Shown one piece after another: positions 2,459 through 11,671 of a DNA stretch of 63,167 nucleotides. Numbering within the stretch: position 1 is the stretch's first letter; each line of letters opens with the position of its first letter. The stretch comes from Syntrophaceae bacterium (GTDB lineage: Bacteria; Desulfobacterota; Syntrophia; Syntrophales; UBA2185), in assembly GCA_003153775.1 (NCBI GenBank), contig PMBI01000048.1:14769-77935 (forward strand), written 5' to 3'. The notes under the pieces were generated by a model. That model saw only the letters and a list, made by a program, of their open reading frames with translations. It was not told the origin of the DNA and searched no databases. Made by a program: the position numbers and the translations under genes.

Positions 2459-2797
2459 TCAGGGCGTGATAATCCGTGAGGTCGATTCGCGCTGCATCTC
2501 CTTGGCCCGTTCAATCATATTCTTTATTGTCAGCGCCATGACCTCAGGAAATTTCTTTATGGCCTCCGGCAGCGTCTTTGCAGGTATCTGGCATTGAATC
2601 GGTATGGGGCCCTGGGGTGTGACCAGTTGTGTCTGTCCGATGAAATGTGATTCGCGCTTTTTGTCTCTGTTGCCGTCGGGCGTCACAGGAGTGAGCCTCC
2701 GTATCCACCCGACCTTCAGATCGGTGAAGGTCTCCTCATGGTAGAGATTGTCCTCGTCTATCCTGATTTCTGGCTCTTTCTCGTCGGTGCCGTTCAT
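2459..2797 (-). CDS. Conserved hypothetical protein, 112 residues
   Basis: Not assigned to a named family. A soluble, charged protein with no signal peptide or membrane segment. The N-terminal third is acidic (runs of Glu/Asp in the first 30 residues); the middle has a Thr-Pro-rich stretch reading TPQGPIPIQCQIP; the C-terminal third is predicted helical (LPEAIKKFPEVMALTIKNMIERAKEMQ). A good ribosome site (AAGGAGA) lies 6 bases before the ATG, and the gene runs convergently towards purQ, with 31 bases between stops. Its 5' end backs on to the cimA control region, so the promoters diverge. The ribosome site and protein-like composition argue that it is real; the function is unknown. Confidence 0.7.
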   Translation of the reverse strand: MNGTDEKEPEIRIDEDNLYHEETFTDLKVGWIRRLTPVTPDGNRDKKRESHFIGQTQLVTPQGPIPIQCQIPAKTLPEAIKKFPEVMALTIKNMIERAKEMQRESTSRIITP

Positions 2798-2932: not shown

Positions 2933-2961
2933 TTGACAAATCGGAATATATATCTTATAAA
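2933..2961 (+). promoter_or_regulatory. Sigma-70-type promoter for the cimA leader
   Basis: TTGACA at 2933-2938 and TATAAA at 2956-2961 are separated by exactly 17 bases, close to the full consensus. Transcription would begin near 2968, giving a leader of roughly 200 bases before the cimA start at 3173. That leader contains the Ile-rich peptide and terminator described separately. Confidence 0.8.
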
Positions 2962-3007
2962 TATCACAAGTGAATTGTTCAAACGCAAAAGGATACAGTT
3001 ATTCATT

Positions 3008-3070
3008 ATGCGAAGCACGTACACCATCAGGCCGATTAGTATTGAAGGCATAATTAGGCTCATTACATAG
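3008..3070 (+). CDS. Isoleucine-rich leader peptide of the cimA attenuator (20 residues)
   Basis: A 20-codon frame from ATG 3008 to TAG 3068-3070. Six of the 20 residues are isoleucine (positions 7, 10, 12, 15, 16, 19), with three threonines and one leucine; this enrichment matches the end product of the citramalate route. An AAGGA lies about 14 bases upstream, a somewhat long spacing. The peptide sits between a consensus promoter and a strong terminator, and its stop codon ends 4 bases before the predicted antiterminator arm. That is the geometry needed for a ribosome at the stop to mask the arm. The peptide is presumably only a sensor of charged tRNA-Ile and has no function after release. 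Confidence 0.75.
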   Translation: MRSTYTIRPISIEGIIRLIT

Positions 3071-3133
3071 GAAGCCTGGTAGTGGTGTAGTGTTTCGATA
3101 AAAACAATAGAGCAGCAAGAATCCGTTATCAGG
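3022..3133 (+). promoter_or_regulatory. Attenuator arms 1, 2 and 3 (antiterminator) in the cimA leader
   Basis: Arm 2 (3075-3085, CCTGGTAGTGG) can pair along all 11 bases with arm 3 (3123-3133, CCGTTATCAGG), counting three G-U pairs. Arm 3 is also the 5' arm of the terminator, so the two structures exclude each other. Arm 1 (3022-3031, CACCATCAGG), inside the leader peptide codons, can pair with arm 2 at 9 of 10 positions. A ribosome stalled on the paired Ile codons at 3050 would leave arm 2 free to form the antiterminator; one that reaches the stop codon would cover arm 2 and let the terminator form. Pairings were worked out by eye. Confidence 0.75.
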
Positions 3134-3156
3134 TTATCTGGTAGCGGTTTTTTTTT
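3123..3156 (+). terminator. Intrinsic terminator of the cimA attenuator
   Basis: Stem of 10 base pairs (two G-U) between 3123-3132 and 3138-3147 with a 5-base loop, followed directly by nine T residues (3148-3156). It stands 16 bases before the cimA start codon, so it can only serve to control cimA read-through. Confidence 0.85.
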
Positions 3157-3172
3157 GGAAGAGGAGAGAGTT

Positions 3173-4771
3173 ATGGATTCGTCTGATGTTTTGATTTACG
3201 ACACGACATTGAGAGACGGGGCTCAGGGCGAGCAGGTAAATTTTTCGGCGGAAGAAAAGTTACGCATCGCTGAACGCCTTGATGAGCTTGGCTTTCACTA
3301 CATTGAAGGCGGGTGGCCGGGATCAAATCCGAAAGATATGCGTTTCTTTGAGATGGCCAAGGGCGTGTCATTCAAGCATGCGCGCCTCACCGCATTCGGC
3401 AGCACCAGAAAGCCGCATATGAAAGCTGCGACTTGCCCCAATATAATGGCTCTCTTAGAGGCGGAAACTCCTGCAGTAGCCATTTTCGGCAAGAGCTGGG
3501 ACCTTCATCTCTCAGACATCCTCAATGTATCCCTCGATGAAAATTTAGAAATGATTCGTGATTCCATTGAATTCGTGAAATCAAAAGGGAAGGAAGTCAT
3601 CTTCGATGCGGAACATTTCTTCGACGGATATAAGAATAATCCCGCTTGTGCGCGCCGGGTGATAGAGACTGCCCTTTCCGCGGGGGCCGACATGATCGTG
3701 CTCTGCGATACCAATGGGGGGACGATGTCCGGTGATCTGATTAAGATCATTAATGAGATCGTCCCTTCCGTGCCTCGCCATCTCCTCGGTATTCATGTAC
3801 ATAATGATTGCGGCCTCGCCGTGGCAAACTCGCTCGCGGCAGTCCAGCAAGGTGTAAGAATGGTTCATGGAACGATCAACGGATATGGAGAAAGGTGCGG
3901 AAACGCCGACCTGATCTCCATAATAGGGAATCTCCAGTTGAAAATGAATAAGAGATGTCTGCCCGATGCGTCCATAAGGCAATTGACACACCTCTCTAAT
4001 TACGTGAGCGACGTTGCTAACATTCCCCCCCTCAATTCCAGGCCGTTCGCAGGCAGGAGTGCGTTTGCCCATAAAGGCGGCGTCCACGTTGATGCGGTAT
4101 TAAAGAATCCGGCGGCATATGAACACATCAGACCGGAGCTTGTGGGAAATCAGCAGCGGGTGCTGGTTTCGGACCTCTCGGGTAAAAGCAATATTGCATA
4201 CAAGGCAAAGGAGCTTGGCATCGACCTGGGTGAGGAATCCTCTGTCAGCAGAAATATTGTTCAACAGGTAAAGACTATGGAAGATCAGGGGTATCGTTTT
4301 GACACAGCCGACGGTTCCCTTTCCGTATTGATGAAGAAAATAAAAGGTGAATTCAGGGATCCGTTTATTCTGGAGAGCTTTCAGGTGATAAATGCAAAAA
4401 CAGGAAATAATCCATCCGTATCACAGGCTACGATCAAGATATCGGTGGGCGGTGAGGAAGAATTGACCGCCGCAGAGGGCAATGGCCCGGTAAATGCCCT
4501 GGATAACGCCCTGAGAAAGGCATTGATAAAATTTTATCCCCAGATCAACGCGATGCATCTCGTTGATTTCAAAGTGCGGATTCTCGAGGGCTGCGAAGGA
4601 ACGGCGGCCAAGGTTACGGTGTTTATAGATTCAACCGACGGTGCGGATATATGGAGTACTATGGGTGTATCCACAAACATCATCGAGGCAAGCTGGCTTG
4701 CCCTCGTGGACAGTATCCAGTATAAATTGAGCAAAGATGAAGAAAACAGGAAGGGAAGCGTTTTAAAATAG
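3173..4771 (+). CDS. cimA: (R)-citramalate synthase CimA
   Basis: Condenses pyruvate with acetyl-CoA to citramalate, the threonine-independent entry to isoleucine. About 532 residues, the usual length for the long citramalate synthases of Geobacter-type bacteria. Visible features: DTTLRDGAQ at residues 10-18, the substrate Arg14-Asp15, the metal motif HVHND at 208-212, the glycine-rich GTINGYGERCGNADL, and a C-terminal regulatory domain (about 400-532) where isoleucine feedback is expected. ATG 3173 was chosen over TTG 3155 because the GAGGAGAGAG ribosome site lies just upstream and the TTG falls inside the terminator T-run. Control by the Ile-codon leader supports CimA rather than isopropylmalate or homocitrate synthase. 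Confidence 0.92.
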   Translation: MDSSDVLIYDTTLRDGAQGEQVNFSAEEKLRIAERLDELGFHYIEGGWPGSNPKDMRFFEMAKGVSFKHARLTAFGSTRKPHMKAATCPNIMALLEAETPAVAIFGKSWDLHLSDILNVSLDENLEMIRDSIEFVKSKGKEVIFDAEHFFDGYKNNPACARRVIETALSAGADMIVLCDTNGGTMSGDLIKIINEIVPSVPRHLLGIHVHNDCGLAVANSLAAVQQGVRMVHGTINGYGERCGNADLISIIGNLQLKMNKRCLPDASIRQLTHLSNYVSDVANIPPLNSRPFAGRSAFAHKGGVHVDAVLKNPAAYEHIRPELVGNQQRVLVSDLSGKSNIAYKAKELGIDLGEESSVSRNIVQQVKTMEDQGYRFDTADGSLSVLMKKIKGEFRDPFILESFQVINAKTGNNPSVSQATIKISVGGEEELTAAEGNGPVNALDNALRKALIKFYPQINAMHLVDFKVRILEGCEGTAAKVTVFIDSTDGADIWSTMGVSTNIIEASWLALVDSIQYKLSKDEENRKGSVLK

Positions 4772-4857: not shown

Positions 4858-5478
4858 ATGAAATATATGTATCTATCCATTAACAGTCAAAATCCGCAGA
4901 TGCGGCTGATCAAGAAGGCTGTTGATGTCCTGCAGGACGGGGGTGTCATCATCTACCCTACGGATACTGTCTATGGGTTGGGTTGCGCCCTTTCCAATAA
5001 GAAGGGCATTGACAGGATTTACGAGATAAAAAGGAGGAGCAGGAAACGGCCGTTGAGTTTTGTTTGTGCAGACCTCAAGGACATCAGCCGTTACGCCCGC
5101 GTTTCGGATTTTGCCTATAAGACCATGAAACGCCTCCTGCCGGGACCATATACATTTATCCTCGAGGCGTCCCGGCTGGTCCCGAAGACCATCCTGCCGA
5201 AGAGACTGGCGACAGGGATCAGGGTGCCGGATAATGAGATCTGCCTGTGCTTGGTCAGGGAGCTGGGGCAGCCCATTATCAGTACGAGTGTGTCGACCGA
5301 GGACGGCGAGGTGCTCAGTAATCCGGTTGAGATCAAGGATAAATTCGGTCATACCGTGGACATGATAATAGATGGAGGCATTCTGGTTTCCGAGCCGTCG
5401 AGTATTATCAGTCTTGTTGATGACACGATTGAGATAGTCAGGGAGGGGAAGGGTGATGTATCCACTCTTGTCCGATGA
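4858..5478 (+). CDS. Sua5/YciO/YrdC family protein (threonylcarbamoyl-AMP synthase-like)
   Basis: About 206 residues with the YrdC fold signature: IYPTDTVYGLGC near residue 32, the KRRSRKRPLSFVC block (the KxR...SxxN-type nucleotide site) and LLPGPYTFIL. True TsaC/Sua5 makes threonylcarbamoyl-AMP for tRNA t6A37. The phrase KRRSRKRPLSFVCADL and the overall length are closer to the YciO branch, whose role is less settled, so no gene symbol is given. It lies between cimA and the RNase E/G gene with about 90-base gaps on either side and may share their transcript. No truncation is seen. Confidence 0.85.
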   Translation: MKYMYLSINSQNPQMRLIKKAVDVLQDGGVIIYPTDTVYGLGCALSNKKGIDRIYEIKRRSRKRPLSFVCADLKDISRYARVSDFAYKTMKRLLPGPYTFILEASRLVPKTILPKRLATGIRVPDNEICLCLVRELGQPIISTSVSTEDGEVLSNPVEIKDKFGHTVDMIIDGGILVSEPSSIISLVDDTIEIVREGKGDVSTLVR

Positions 5479-5573
5479 TTATCTCGTAAAAATATAAATA
5501 GCGGCCTGGAGTTGGCCGCAGCGCAGCCCCTGCACATATTTGCGAGGCTGAGATTTAAAGAACAAGGATATTT

Positions 5574-7448
5574 ATGAAAAGAGTGATGTTAATTAATGCT
5601 GTTCATCCGGAACAGAAGCGGCTGGCCATTGTGGACGGGGGGAAACTCATCGAATACAACATCCAGATGGCGGACAAGGAACCCATAACCGGCAATATCT
5701 ACAAAGGCGCCGTGATGAAAGTGGAGCGCGGTCTCCAGGCGGCTTTTGTAAATTACGGGGGCAGGAGGGATGGATTTCTGCCGTTGCACGACGTCAGTCC
5801 CGAGTATTTCACAGAGCAGACGGGAAAAGAAGGCGGCACATCGAGTCAGAGACCTTTTCTGAAGGCGGGTCAGGAGGTGCTGGTTCAGATAGTGAGAGAA
5901 GAAAGCGAACGTAAAGGGGCGCTTCTTACGGCCTACATATCATTGCCCGGAAGATATTTGGTTCTCCTGCCGAATAAGGAAAGCAGCGGCATTTCCCGGA
6001 AAATAGAGGATGAGGAAGACCGGAAGCGACTGAAGACATTAATGGAGCAAATAAAAATTGATGAAGGCCTTGGTTTTATAATCCGTACGGCAGGCATGCA
6101 CAGAACAAAGCAGGAGCTTTCCCGGGATTATCAAATGCTGTCCCGGCTGTGGAAGGAGATTCAAAAGAGGGCAAAGAGCGCCCCTGCGCAGTCACTCATC
6201 TATCAGGAAAGTAATTTCGGTGTGTGCTCTCTCCGCGACTATTACACATCGGAAATAGAAGAGATCCTCGTAGACGATGTGGAGACGTACAGAAAGATGA
6301 GGGAATACTCCAAAGCCGTCGTCCCGAGGACCGTAAAACTCATCAAGCTCTATAAGGACAAGACACCGCTCTTTGATAAGAATCGGCTTGAGGAGCAGAT
6401 TCGCGTTATTTACCAGGACAGGGTGGAGTTGAAATCCGGCGGTTATATAATAATAAATCCGACGGAAGCCATGACTACCATAGATGTCAATTCGGGGCGG
6501 GCATCAAACAAGAGGAACGTGGAAGAAACGGCCTTCAAGACCAACATGGAAGCGGCAGAGGAGATTGCCAGGCAGCTGCGCCTGCGAGACCTGGGCGGAT
6601 TGCTTGTAATCGACTTCATCGATATGCGTGACCGAAAACACGAAGCCGAAGTGGAGAAGACCTTCAAAAAGGCCCTCAATATCGACAGGGCAAGGATACA
6701 GATGTCGCGCATATCCAAGTTCGGAATCCTTGAACTTTCCAGACAGAAGAAGCAGTCGACCATACAGGAAATCAGCTATAACGTCTGCCCTTACTGTAAG
6801 GGACGCGGTGTCAGGCCATCTTTGGAATACACGGCCCTCGGCGCCTTCCGGAAAATTGAATCACAGGCGGTAAAGGGGGATTACTCCGCTCTCAAAGTGA
6901 AGCTGCCATACGAGATAGCCGATTATCTTCTGAACAGGAAGAGAAGCGAGATCAGTAAACTTGAAAGCACGTATAACGTGTCTATTCACATTTCCGGGAA
7001 CCCTGACACGCCGTGGGACGAATTGAAGATCGAAACCGTAGCCAGAGAGGTAATTGAGGAAGCTTCTCAGGAGGAGGAAAGCCGTCCTGTTGAGATGTCT
7101 GATAAACAGGAAAATGGGCGCACCGAACCCGCTGTCGAAGTATTAACACAGGACGAAGTGAGCTCCCTTCCGCAGGAGAGCAGCGAAGGAGCAGAGGCAA
7201 GTCCCAAGCCTGCCAAGAAGAAGTCAAGATGGAGACCAAGACGCAAGAGAAAGAAAACGGACGATAAATCCGTTGAACCCGTATCCCGACCTCCGGCTGA
7301 GCAAAGCGCCAATACGACGACCTACAGGAAAATAGAACAGGCCCAGGACAGCGCAGTTACTCCGCCGGCGCAGTCCGGTGGAACAAGCGGAGAAGGACAG
7401 GACCTTTTAACAAGACTCCGCAAGGTGTTTGAACAAATCGAGGAGTAG
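5574..7448 (+). CDS. rng: Ribonuclease E/G family endoribonuclease
   Basis: Single-strand endoribonuclease acting in mRNA decay and rRNA maturation. About 624 residues. An N-terminal S1 RNA-binding region (GNIYKGAVMKVERGLQAAFVNYG) is followed by the catalytic DNase I-like domain. Asp304 (TTIDVNSG) and Asp347 (VIDFIDM) match the magnesium ligands Asp303/Asp346 of E. coli RNase E, and Cys405/Cys408 (CPYCKGRG) match the zinc link Cys404/407. The last 130 residues are low complexity, with an Arg/Lys-rich patch (KKKSRWRPRRKRKK) resembling the RNA-binding region of RNase E. The length lies between RNase G and RNase E. A hairpin with GCGGCC/GGCCGC arms is present at 5501-5519 in the 5' leader; whether it matters is not known. 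Confidence 0.93.
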   Translation: MKRVMLINAVHPEQKRLAIVDGGKLIEYNIQMADKEPITGNIYKGAVMKVERGLQAAFVNYGGRRDGFLPLHDVSPEYFTEQTGKEGGTSSQRPFLKAGQEVLVQIVREESERKGALLTAYISLPGRYLVLLPNKESSGISRKIEDEEDRKRLKTLMEQIKIDEGLGFIIRTAGMHRTKQELSRDYQMLSRLWKEIQKRAKSAPAQSLIYQESNFGVCSLRDYYTSEIEEILVDDVETYRKMREYSKAVVPRTVKLIKLYKDKTPLFDKNRLEEQIRVIYQDRVELKSGGYIIINPTEAMTTIDVNSGRASNKRNVEETAFKTNMEAAEEIARQLRLRDLGGLLVIDFIDMRDRKHEAEVEKTFKKALNIDRARIQMSRISKFGILELSRQKKQSTIQEISYNVCPYCKGRGVRPSLEYTALGAFRKIESQAVKGDYSALKVKLPYEIADYLLNRKRSEISKLESTYNVSIHISGNPDTPWDELKIETVAREVIEEASQEEESRPVEMSDKQENGRTEPAVEVLTQDEVSSLPQESSEGAEASPKPAKKKSRWRPRRKRKKTDDKSVEPVSRPPAEQSANTTTYRKIEQAQDSAVTPPAQSGGTSGEGQDLLTRLRKVFEQIEE

Positions 7449-10081: not shown

Positions 10082-11671
10082 ATGGAAGAAGGTCGAATAA
10101 CAGGCACGGAAAATAGAAGAGTCGCCCGGGCAGCAGGGGTGGTCGGTCTGGCGACGATGCTTTCCCGCATATCCGGCTTTCTCCGGGATATGGTCGTCGC
10201 AGCTTTTTTTGGCGCCGGTCTCACAACGGACGCCTTTTTTGTTGCCTTCCGGATTCCCAACATGCTCAGGCGTCTGCTCGGCGAAGGATCGCTGACTGTA
10301 TCCTTCGTGCCTGTCTTTACTGAATACCTGAAAAAAAAGACGAAGGCCGAGGCCTATGAACTGGCCGATGTCGCATTTACGGCGCTTTCGATCATCCTCG
10401 TCATTGTATCTATTGCAGGCATTATTTTTTCGCCGCTTATCGTGACGATCATGGCGCCCGGATGGTACATTGATCACTCTGCCCACTATCACCTGACGGT
10501 TTTTCTCAATCGTCTGATGTTCCCCTACATCTTCTTCATCGCTCTGGTGGCGCTGTGCATGGGCATCCTCAATTCCCTGCGCCACTTCGCCGCCCCCGCC
10601 CTTTCACCCATCATCCTCAACATCTGCATGATCATGGCGGTGCTCTTGCTCATGGACTTTTTCGCGGAACCGATCACGGCTCTTGCCGTGGGAGTCATGA
10701 TAGGAGGAGTTTTGCAGCTCGCCATGCAGTGGCCTTTTCTTGCTAAATTCGGATTAAAGCTCAAGCTGGACTTCAACTTCAGGCATCCTGGCCTTAAAAA
10801 AATCGGGATACTCATGCTTCCCGCAGTTTTTGGTGCGTCGATCTATCAGATCAATATTTTCATCTCCACAATACTGGCCTCTCTCCTCCCTTCCGGCAGC
10901 GTCTCCTATCTCTATTACGCCGACCGGATCGTGGAGCTTCCCCTCGGCGTATTTGCAATTGCTATAGGAACTGCTGCGCTTCCCAGTTTTTCGGAGCAGG
11001 TGGCAAAAGGCGACTTTCATGAATTAAAGGGAACAATAAATTTTTCCCTGAGACTGATACTCTTTGTCACGATACCGGCAACTGTCGCACTCATAGTGCT
11101 CCGGGTGCCGATAATCTCGGTGCTTTTCCAGAGAGGCGCGTTTGATATCCAGTCAGCCCTTCTAACAGCGCAAGCCCTCTTGTGCTACGCCCTCGGCTTG
11201 TGGGCCTTTTCGGTGATCAGGGTTATTGTGTCGGCTTTTTATTCACTTCAGGATTCAAAAACACCGATGAAAGCGGGAATTGTCGCATTCATTGTTAATG
11301 TTATATGCAGTATTACTCTCATGTATCCTCTAAAGCATAGCGGGCTTGCACTTGCAACGTCCATCGCCACGACTGTAAATGTCATCATGCTGACAGTTGT
11401 TCTTAAGAGAAGGATAGGGGTTTTCTTGGATCAGGAGTTTTATAAGTCCGTCTTCAATATATTTGTGTCGTCGTTCGCAATGTGCGTGGTTATCATCCTC
11501 ATAGGAACTTTCCTGCCCTGGAGTGATGAGGGGCCGTTTAACGAGAGATTATTGTACCTCATGATCTGTGTCTTTGCAGGGATGGCCGCATTCTTCATCA
11601 CTGCCTGCTTAACTAAGTGCTCGGAAATGACGATGATTATTGATGTTGTCAAGAGGAGGATGACGGGCTAA
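10082..11671 (+). CDS. murJ: Lipid II flippase MurJ (MviN)
   Basis: Moves the peptidoglycan precursor lipid II across the inner membrane. About 529 residues with some 14 hydrophobic segments. The family signature is at the N-terminus: GLATMLSRISGFLRDMVVAAFFGAG, followed by TDAFFVAFRIPNMLRRLLGEGSL, which carries conserved arginines. The start is uncertain: ATG 10082 gives a natural N-terminus ahead of the first helix, but no clear ribosome site is seen; TTG 10067 would add five residues. It is separated by about 100 bases from the DUF167 gene and followed after 118 bases by serS. Confidence 0.93.
   Translation: MEEGRITGTENRRVARAAGVVGLATMLSRISGFLRDMVVAAFFGAGLTTDAFFVAFRIPNMLRRLLGEGSLTVSFVPVFTEYLKKKTKAEAYELADVAFTALSIILVIVSIAGIIFSPLIVTIMAPGWYIDHSAHYHLTVFLNRLMFPYIFFIALVALCMGILNSLRHFAAPALSPIILNICMIMAVLLLMDFFAEPITALAVGVMIGGVLQLAMQWPFLAKFGLKLKLDFNFRHPGLKKIGILMLPAVFGASIYQINIFISTILASLLPSGSVSYLYYADRIVELPLGVFAIAIGTAALPSFSEQVAKGDFHELKGTINFSLRLILFVTIPATVALIVLRVPIISVLFQRGAFDIQSALLTAQALLCYALGLWAFSVIRVIVSAFYSLQDSKTPMKAGIVAFIVNVICSITLMYPLKHSGLALATSIATTVNVIMLTVVLKRRIGVFLDQEFYKSVFNIFVSSFAMCVVIILIGTFLPWSDEGPFNERLLYLMICVFAGMAAFFITACLTKCSEMTMIIDVVKRRMTG

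Follow-up and report, generated by a model that had tools for sequence, protein, structure and literature searches.

A probable isoleucine-responsive transcription attenuator in front of the citramalate synthase gene of Syntrophales

What controls the transcription of cimA in bacteria of the order Syntrophales? Many anaerobes use an isoleucine route that is independent of threonine, with citramalate synthase as its committing enzyme, and to our knowledge there is little literature on the transcriptional control of this enzyme. Most descriptions of leader-peptide attenuation in amino acid operons come from gamma-proteobacteria, with some cases in alpha-proteobacteria, Actinobacteria and others. 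The question is raised by positions 2933-3172 of a window of 63,167 nt (the whole stretch of DNA analysed), taken from a genome of 3.13 Mb in 98 contigs that belongs to the order Syntrophales of the phylum Desulfobacterota. Here a first-pass annotation had read a complete leader-peptide attenuator. The region very probably holds a classical ribosome-mediated transcription attenuator which couples the transcription of cimA to the supply of charged isoleucine tRNA.

The leader region is intergenic, flanked by a divergent small ORF (2459-2797, minus strand) on one side and by cimA on the other, and its elements follow one another on the forward strand. The -35 hexamer TTGACA (2933-2938) and, after a 17-nt spacer, the -10 hexamer TATAAA (2956-2961) match the consensus at 11 of 12 positions and would place the transcript start near 2968; a promoter scan demanding a T at the last -10 position did not call this promoter (2933-2961). 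Promoter-like pairs 5' of the leader reach a mean of 9.7 of 12 matching positions in the relatives against 7.7 in shuffles. The leader ORF (3008-3070) encodes MRSTYTIRPISIEGIIRLIT in 20 codons and ends with TAG at 3068. Its six Ile codons are, in order, ATC ATT ATT ATA ATT ATT, with ATA ATT (3050-3055) as Ile15-16; of the 776 ATG ORFs in the window that encode 12-40 aa, no other has six or more Ile and 25% Ile. A Shine-Dalgarno-like AAAGGA stands about 14-15 nt before the leader ATG, a poor spacing that is non-optimal for initiation on paper.

Downstream of the ORF, arm 2 (CCTGGTAGTGG, 3075-3085), the 5' half of the antiterminator, forms 11 bp with arm 3 (CCGTTATCAGG, 3123-3133), which is common to antiterminator and terminator. 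Arm 4 (CTGGTAGCGG, 3138-3147) is the 3' half of the terminator, whose stem (3123-3132 with 3138-3147) is followed by the T9 tract of an intrinsic terminator (3148-3156). Between the T9 tract and the cimA ATG at 3173 lies GGAAGAGGAGAGAGTT, and the Shine-Dalgarno region of cimA (3159-3168) is outside every hairpin. The gene itself (3173-4771) is identified as (R)-citramalate synthase by NCBIfam TIGR00977 (cut-off 450 bits) at a score of 721.6 bits, far in excess of those of its product against the 2-isopropylmalate synthase models. The near-consensus promoter, the 20-residue peptide with six Ile codons, the 11-base antiterminator pairing, the competing 10-bp terminator with its nine T residues and the cimA gene directly downstream are all present as the first-pass annotation had described them. 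Folding of the 205-nt leader RNA, which it had suggested as a check, gave a z of -4.2, with none of 200 shuffles equally stable. On the same strand 3' of cimA, the stretch 4858-7448 carries a threonylcarbamoyladenylate synthase gene and an RNase E/G gene, which is unusual company for an attenuated amino acid gene.

From this arrangement we infer the following course of events. RNA polymerase would start near 2968 and a ribosome would translate the leader. With sufficient Ile, the ribosome would reach the TAG at 3068 and cover arm 2, so that arms 3 and 4 would make the terminator and transcription would end near 3156. When charged Ile-tRNA is short, the ribosome would stall on the Ile codons, above all on ATA ATT at 3050-3055, some 20-odd nt before arm 2. 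Arm 2 would then be free to capture arm 3 once this is made, no terminator would form and cimA would be transcribed. If the leader is left untranslated, arm 1, within the peptide codons, would capture arm 2 and the terminator would form.

This scheme can be examined in the relatives, as matches to cimA occur in 148 of 149 related genomes, some of them weak paralogue matches only. Among the 110 cimA upstream regions gathered from Syntrophales, nearly all have a terminator with the stem CCGTTATCAGG or CCGCTGCCAGG, then a T tract. A leader ORF stands at the equivalent place in all 106 regions that were usable, with at least four Ile codons in 102, at least six in 89 and a median of eight; the remaining four relatives have a weak Ile signal. 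Examples of the peptides are MGTISIAIIIISIIIISFPIGGLAVE (L046) and MKINTIIIIINGIIIRPPHIKGLIMV (L080), and the peptide of L007 is identical to the leader peptide of Syntrophaceae CG2_30_49_12. In frame, 29.8% of leader codons are Ile, compared with 2.5% and 0.9% when the other frames are read; the in-frame figure is somewhat inflated, as the frame was picked as the Ile-richest of a few candidate ORFs. This choice cannot explain the five-fold excess, with an observed mean of 7.6 Ile per leader against 1.5 in shuffles. The Ile codons and, as shown below, both helices with compensatory changes are conserved among the relatives, which was the check that the first-pass annotation had proposed for its reading.

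The ends of the peptides are less constant than their composition. ORF length varies, and the stop spans -68 to -27 relative to arm 3. In the genus of the window and its close relatives the stop codon is found just 5' of arm 2 (3068-3085 in the window), while for most members of the order the reading frame extends across arm 2 to a stop inside it or just after it, and the peptides finish in GGLAVE or GDLIMV. Both stop positions cover arm 2. The short, Ile-rich peptides could in principle be functional hydrophobic small proteins, for example of the type I toxin-like kind, and not sensors. There is next to no chance of this, as length and stop position are so variable and the ORF stands before branched-chain biosynthesis genes, with a composition that tracks the regulated pathway.

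The competing helices were compared in an alignment of 57 leaders. The antiterminator (arms 2 and 3) is paired in 94.3% of cells, with four pairs changed on both sides, and the terminator (arms 3 and 4) in 95.2%, with five such pairs. Cells changed on both sides number 49 against 12.7 in shuffles for the antiterminator and 54 against 11.5 for the terminator; sequence relatedness inflates these double-change counts, although the changes are nonetheless seen in several families. Control pairings made by sliding the arms drop to 25-57% paired. The two helices are mutually exclusive, and the sequence of arm 3 has to suit two partners, arm 2 and arm 4. Where arm 3 has CTGCC in place of TTATC, both partner arms have changed to match, except for one recurrent mismatch in arm 2.

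Such a switch could also act on the translation of cimA and not on its transcription, by hiding or exposing the ribosome binding site. The end of the terminator is indeed only about 10 nt from the cimA Shine-Dalgarno in many genomes, but the Shine-Dalgarno lies outside every predicted helix. Moreover, a T-rich tract follows the hairpin in almost all relatives and in some of them the hairpin is 40-190 nt before the start codon, both of which fit transcription termination. Control of translation is therefore extremely unlikely, and the attenuation of transcription is the preferred reading.

The attenuator model predicts that the position of the ribosome decides the fold. This was assessed by placing a ribosome on each codon in turn and folding the RNA ahead of it up to the end of arm 3. 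For the window, a ribosome on Ile15, Ile16 or Ile19 gives a predicted antiterminator probability of 0.97, which drops to 0.02 when the ribosome is on the stop and to 0.00 when there is none. Across 100 leaders, the best Ile codon has a median probability of 0.88 and the stop one of 0.00, and the full three-state switch is not predicted in about 41 of these relatives, either from a probability above 0.5 without a ribosome or from a weak stall state. The last Ile-Ile pair is 20-23 nt 5' of arm 2 in 83 of 105 leaders, which is the distance that leaves arm 2 free of a stalled ribosome. As the equilibrium fold of the full leader always favours the terminator, antitermination would depend on co-transcriptional kinetics, as in known attenuators.

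Arm 1, which the first-pass annotation had put forward only as possible, is borne out by the minimum free energy fold and by an order-wide control. In the full-length fold, arm 2 is sequestered by 3011-3032, a segment within the peptide codons whose pairing partners are 3074-3078 and 3082-3097. The mean probability of the antiterminator without a ribosome is 0.30 throughout the order against 0.54 in codon-shuffled leaders (p = 5e-11). This implies that arm 1 is on average a selected feature, even though its sequestration of arm 2 is not present in every relative.

The last Ile-Ile pair is also conserved in its spelling. In 68 of 105 leaders it reads ATA ATT, with ATA being the least used Ile codon (22%) in the genes of the window. 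Ile sensing alone is not an explanation for retention at the nucleotide level.

To find further copies, a covariance model was built from the cimA leaders. In the genome of the window, strong scores are found only at the cimA leader (E 1e-22) and at an ilvB leader (2e-12), and the next match is a plain terminator at 0.001. The ilvB copy, L113 (G000:C26:210412-210547, minus strand), is a second Ile leader, MHAFSIANIIIIIIGIIIPFHRRAG, with antiterminator and terminator present, and precedes ilvB-ilvN-ilvC-ilvD, of which ilvD was assigned by family search and the other three by recognisable sequence. Immediately 5' of this copy there is another ilvB-ilvN-like pair. The leuA gene of the same genome (G000:C95, leuA at 10243, minus strand) has a Leu-rich leader, MKKALVNLNSDATLLLLALLRLLPNGRRPSFLGNP (L268), followed by a hairpin and a T tract; this leader is unrelated in sequence to that of cimA.

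In other orders of Desulfobacterota, the model has matches in 54 of 394 genomes, and an exact-pattern search found at least 80 loci. Among the matches listed, leaders outside Syntrophales precede cimA (at least 34), ilvD (at least 25), ilvB (at least 9) and leuA (at least 4). Those before ilvD and ilvB encode peptides with a mixture of Ile, Leu and Val, those before leuA have Leu/Val, and at cimA-leuA-leuC operons Ile comes first and then Leu, as in MRNLVQNIIVIISATGILLPLLLLVVVRLKGPGLIMT (L150). In the Desulfobacterales relatives, where leaders stand before cimA-leuA-leuC, ilvD, ilvB or leuA, the codons match the products of the operon. Leaders have a mean of 5.3 Leu codons when leuA follows cimA and of 1.7 when it does not (p = 6e-5, a value that ignores phylogeny). 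Composite leaders with an Ile tract and then a Leu tract were seen before cimA-leuA(-leuC) in L150, L170, L174, L189, L196, L206 and L221, from Desulfobacterales and relatives, and are probably sensors of both amino acids. At L210, a Desulfobacterota-like cimA with a similar leader lies on a contig binned as Candidatus Aminicenantes, through either a binning error or a horizontal transfer.

This dependence on the operon also bears on the role of the ORF. The terminator could be a plain one, or one controlled by a ligand as in a riboswitch, T-box or protein-bound leader, with the short ORF being incidental. Terminator and alternative helix are strongly conserved on any account and translation of the leader is a prediction, yet the Ile codons are enriched in one frame only, and the residues of the peptide follow the operon, being Ile where cimA or ilv is the target, Leu where it is leuA and both where it is cimA-leuA. 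The region is also without a T-box or riboswitch family match: in Rfam 15, no family reaches its gathering score and there is no meaningful match at a relaxed threshold among T-boxes, riboswitches and leader families, the Thr_leader score at the ilvB copy L113 (28.5 bits, cut-off 55) being at chance level. An incidental ORF is thus very unlikely, and the comparative evidence supports the attenuator interpretation well. For the wider set, the chances seem evenly balanced that a single homologous attenuator family (arms CCTGATAATGG, CCGTTATCAG) has spread through Desulfobacterota and been retargeted among cimA, cimA-leuA-leuC, ilvB, ilvD and leuA by exchange of leader codons, with the sensed amino acids tracking operon content, and that the AUA-AUU pair held at the nucleotide level in Syntrophales could reflect a response to the minor AUA-reading isoleucine tRNA in particular.

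The leader peptides of ilvL and ilvBN in Escherichia coli and Salmonella contain Ile, Val and Leu, whereas the cimA leader of Syntrophales is essentially Ile only. Classical attenuators are those of the trp, his, leu, thr, ilv and phe operons (PMC1183508). Two of the systems named there, ilvGMEDA (ilvL) and ilvBN of Escherichia coli and Salmonella, share with the present case a short ORF with many regulatory codons, competing antiterminator and terminator helices, branched-chain target genes and ribosome stalling as the sensor, the latter predicted here. They differ in that the target here is cimA of the citramalate route, in a different phylum and with arms that have no Rfam match. The ilvBNC attenuator of Corynebacterium (ilvB-II motif; PMC10272879, PMC11857589) likewise has an Ile/Leu/Val-rich uORF with antiterminator and terminator before ilvB, but is confined to Corynebacterium and has another target and specificity. 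Leu_leader (RF00512), Thr_leader (RF00506), His_leader (RF00514) and Trp_leader (RF00513) of Rfam belong to the same mechanism class, with no match at gathering score. An analysis of Rfam leaders in 255 genomes, including Desulfovibrionales, stated that Ile/Val leaders are absent from Rfam and that the motifs may be of gamma-proteobacterial origin (PMC3766115). Surveys from the Breaker laboratory (PMC8632094, PMC11109978) describe several uORF motifs, among them one for ilvB in Corynebacterium and one for cysS in Rhodobacterales, and also an ilvD motif in Veillonella. No cimA attenuator is among those reported in these three papers.

No report of a leader-peptide attenuator for cimA or in Desulfobacterota was found in the open-access literature that was searched. 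The abstract of the main comparative survey, by Vitreschak et al. in 2004, reportedly names gamma- and alpha-proteobacteria and others, not delta-proteobacteria. The statement in the first-pass annotation that no isoleucine attenuator for cimA was known to it agrees with this literature and with Rfam. The mechanism is known, and as far as could be checked the novelty lies in the target gene, the phylum and the RNA family.

An Ile-specific attenuator before cimA throughout an order predicts which amino acid is sensed and offers a ready-made expression switch. The natural series of leaders, with codons that track operon content, is a useful comparative test of attenuation theory. Attenuation as a common control of branched-chain operons in Desulfobacterota widens the range of this mechanism, and its occurrence there questions a purely gamma-proteobacterial origin (cf. 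PMC3766115).
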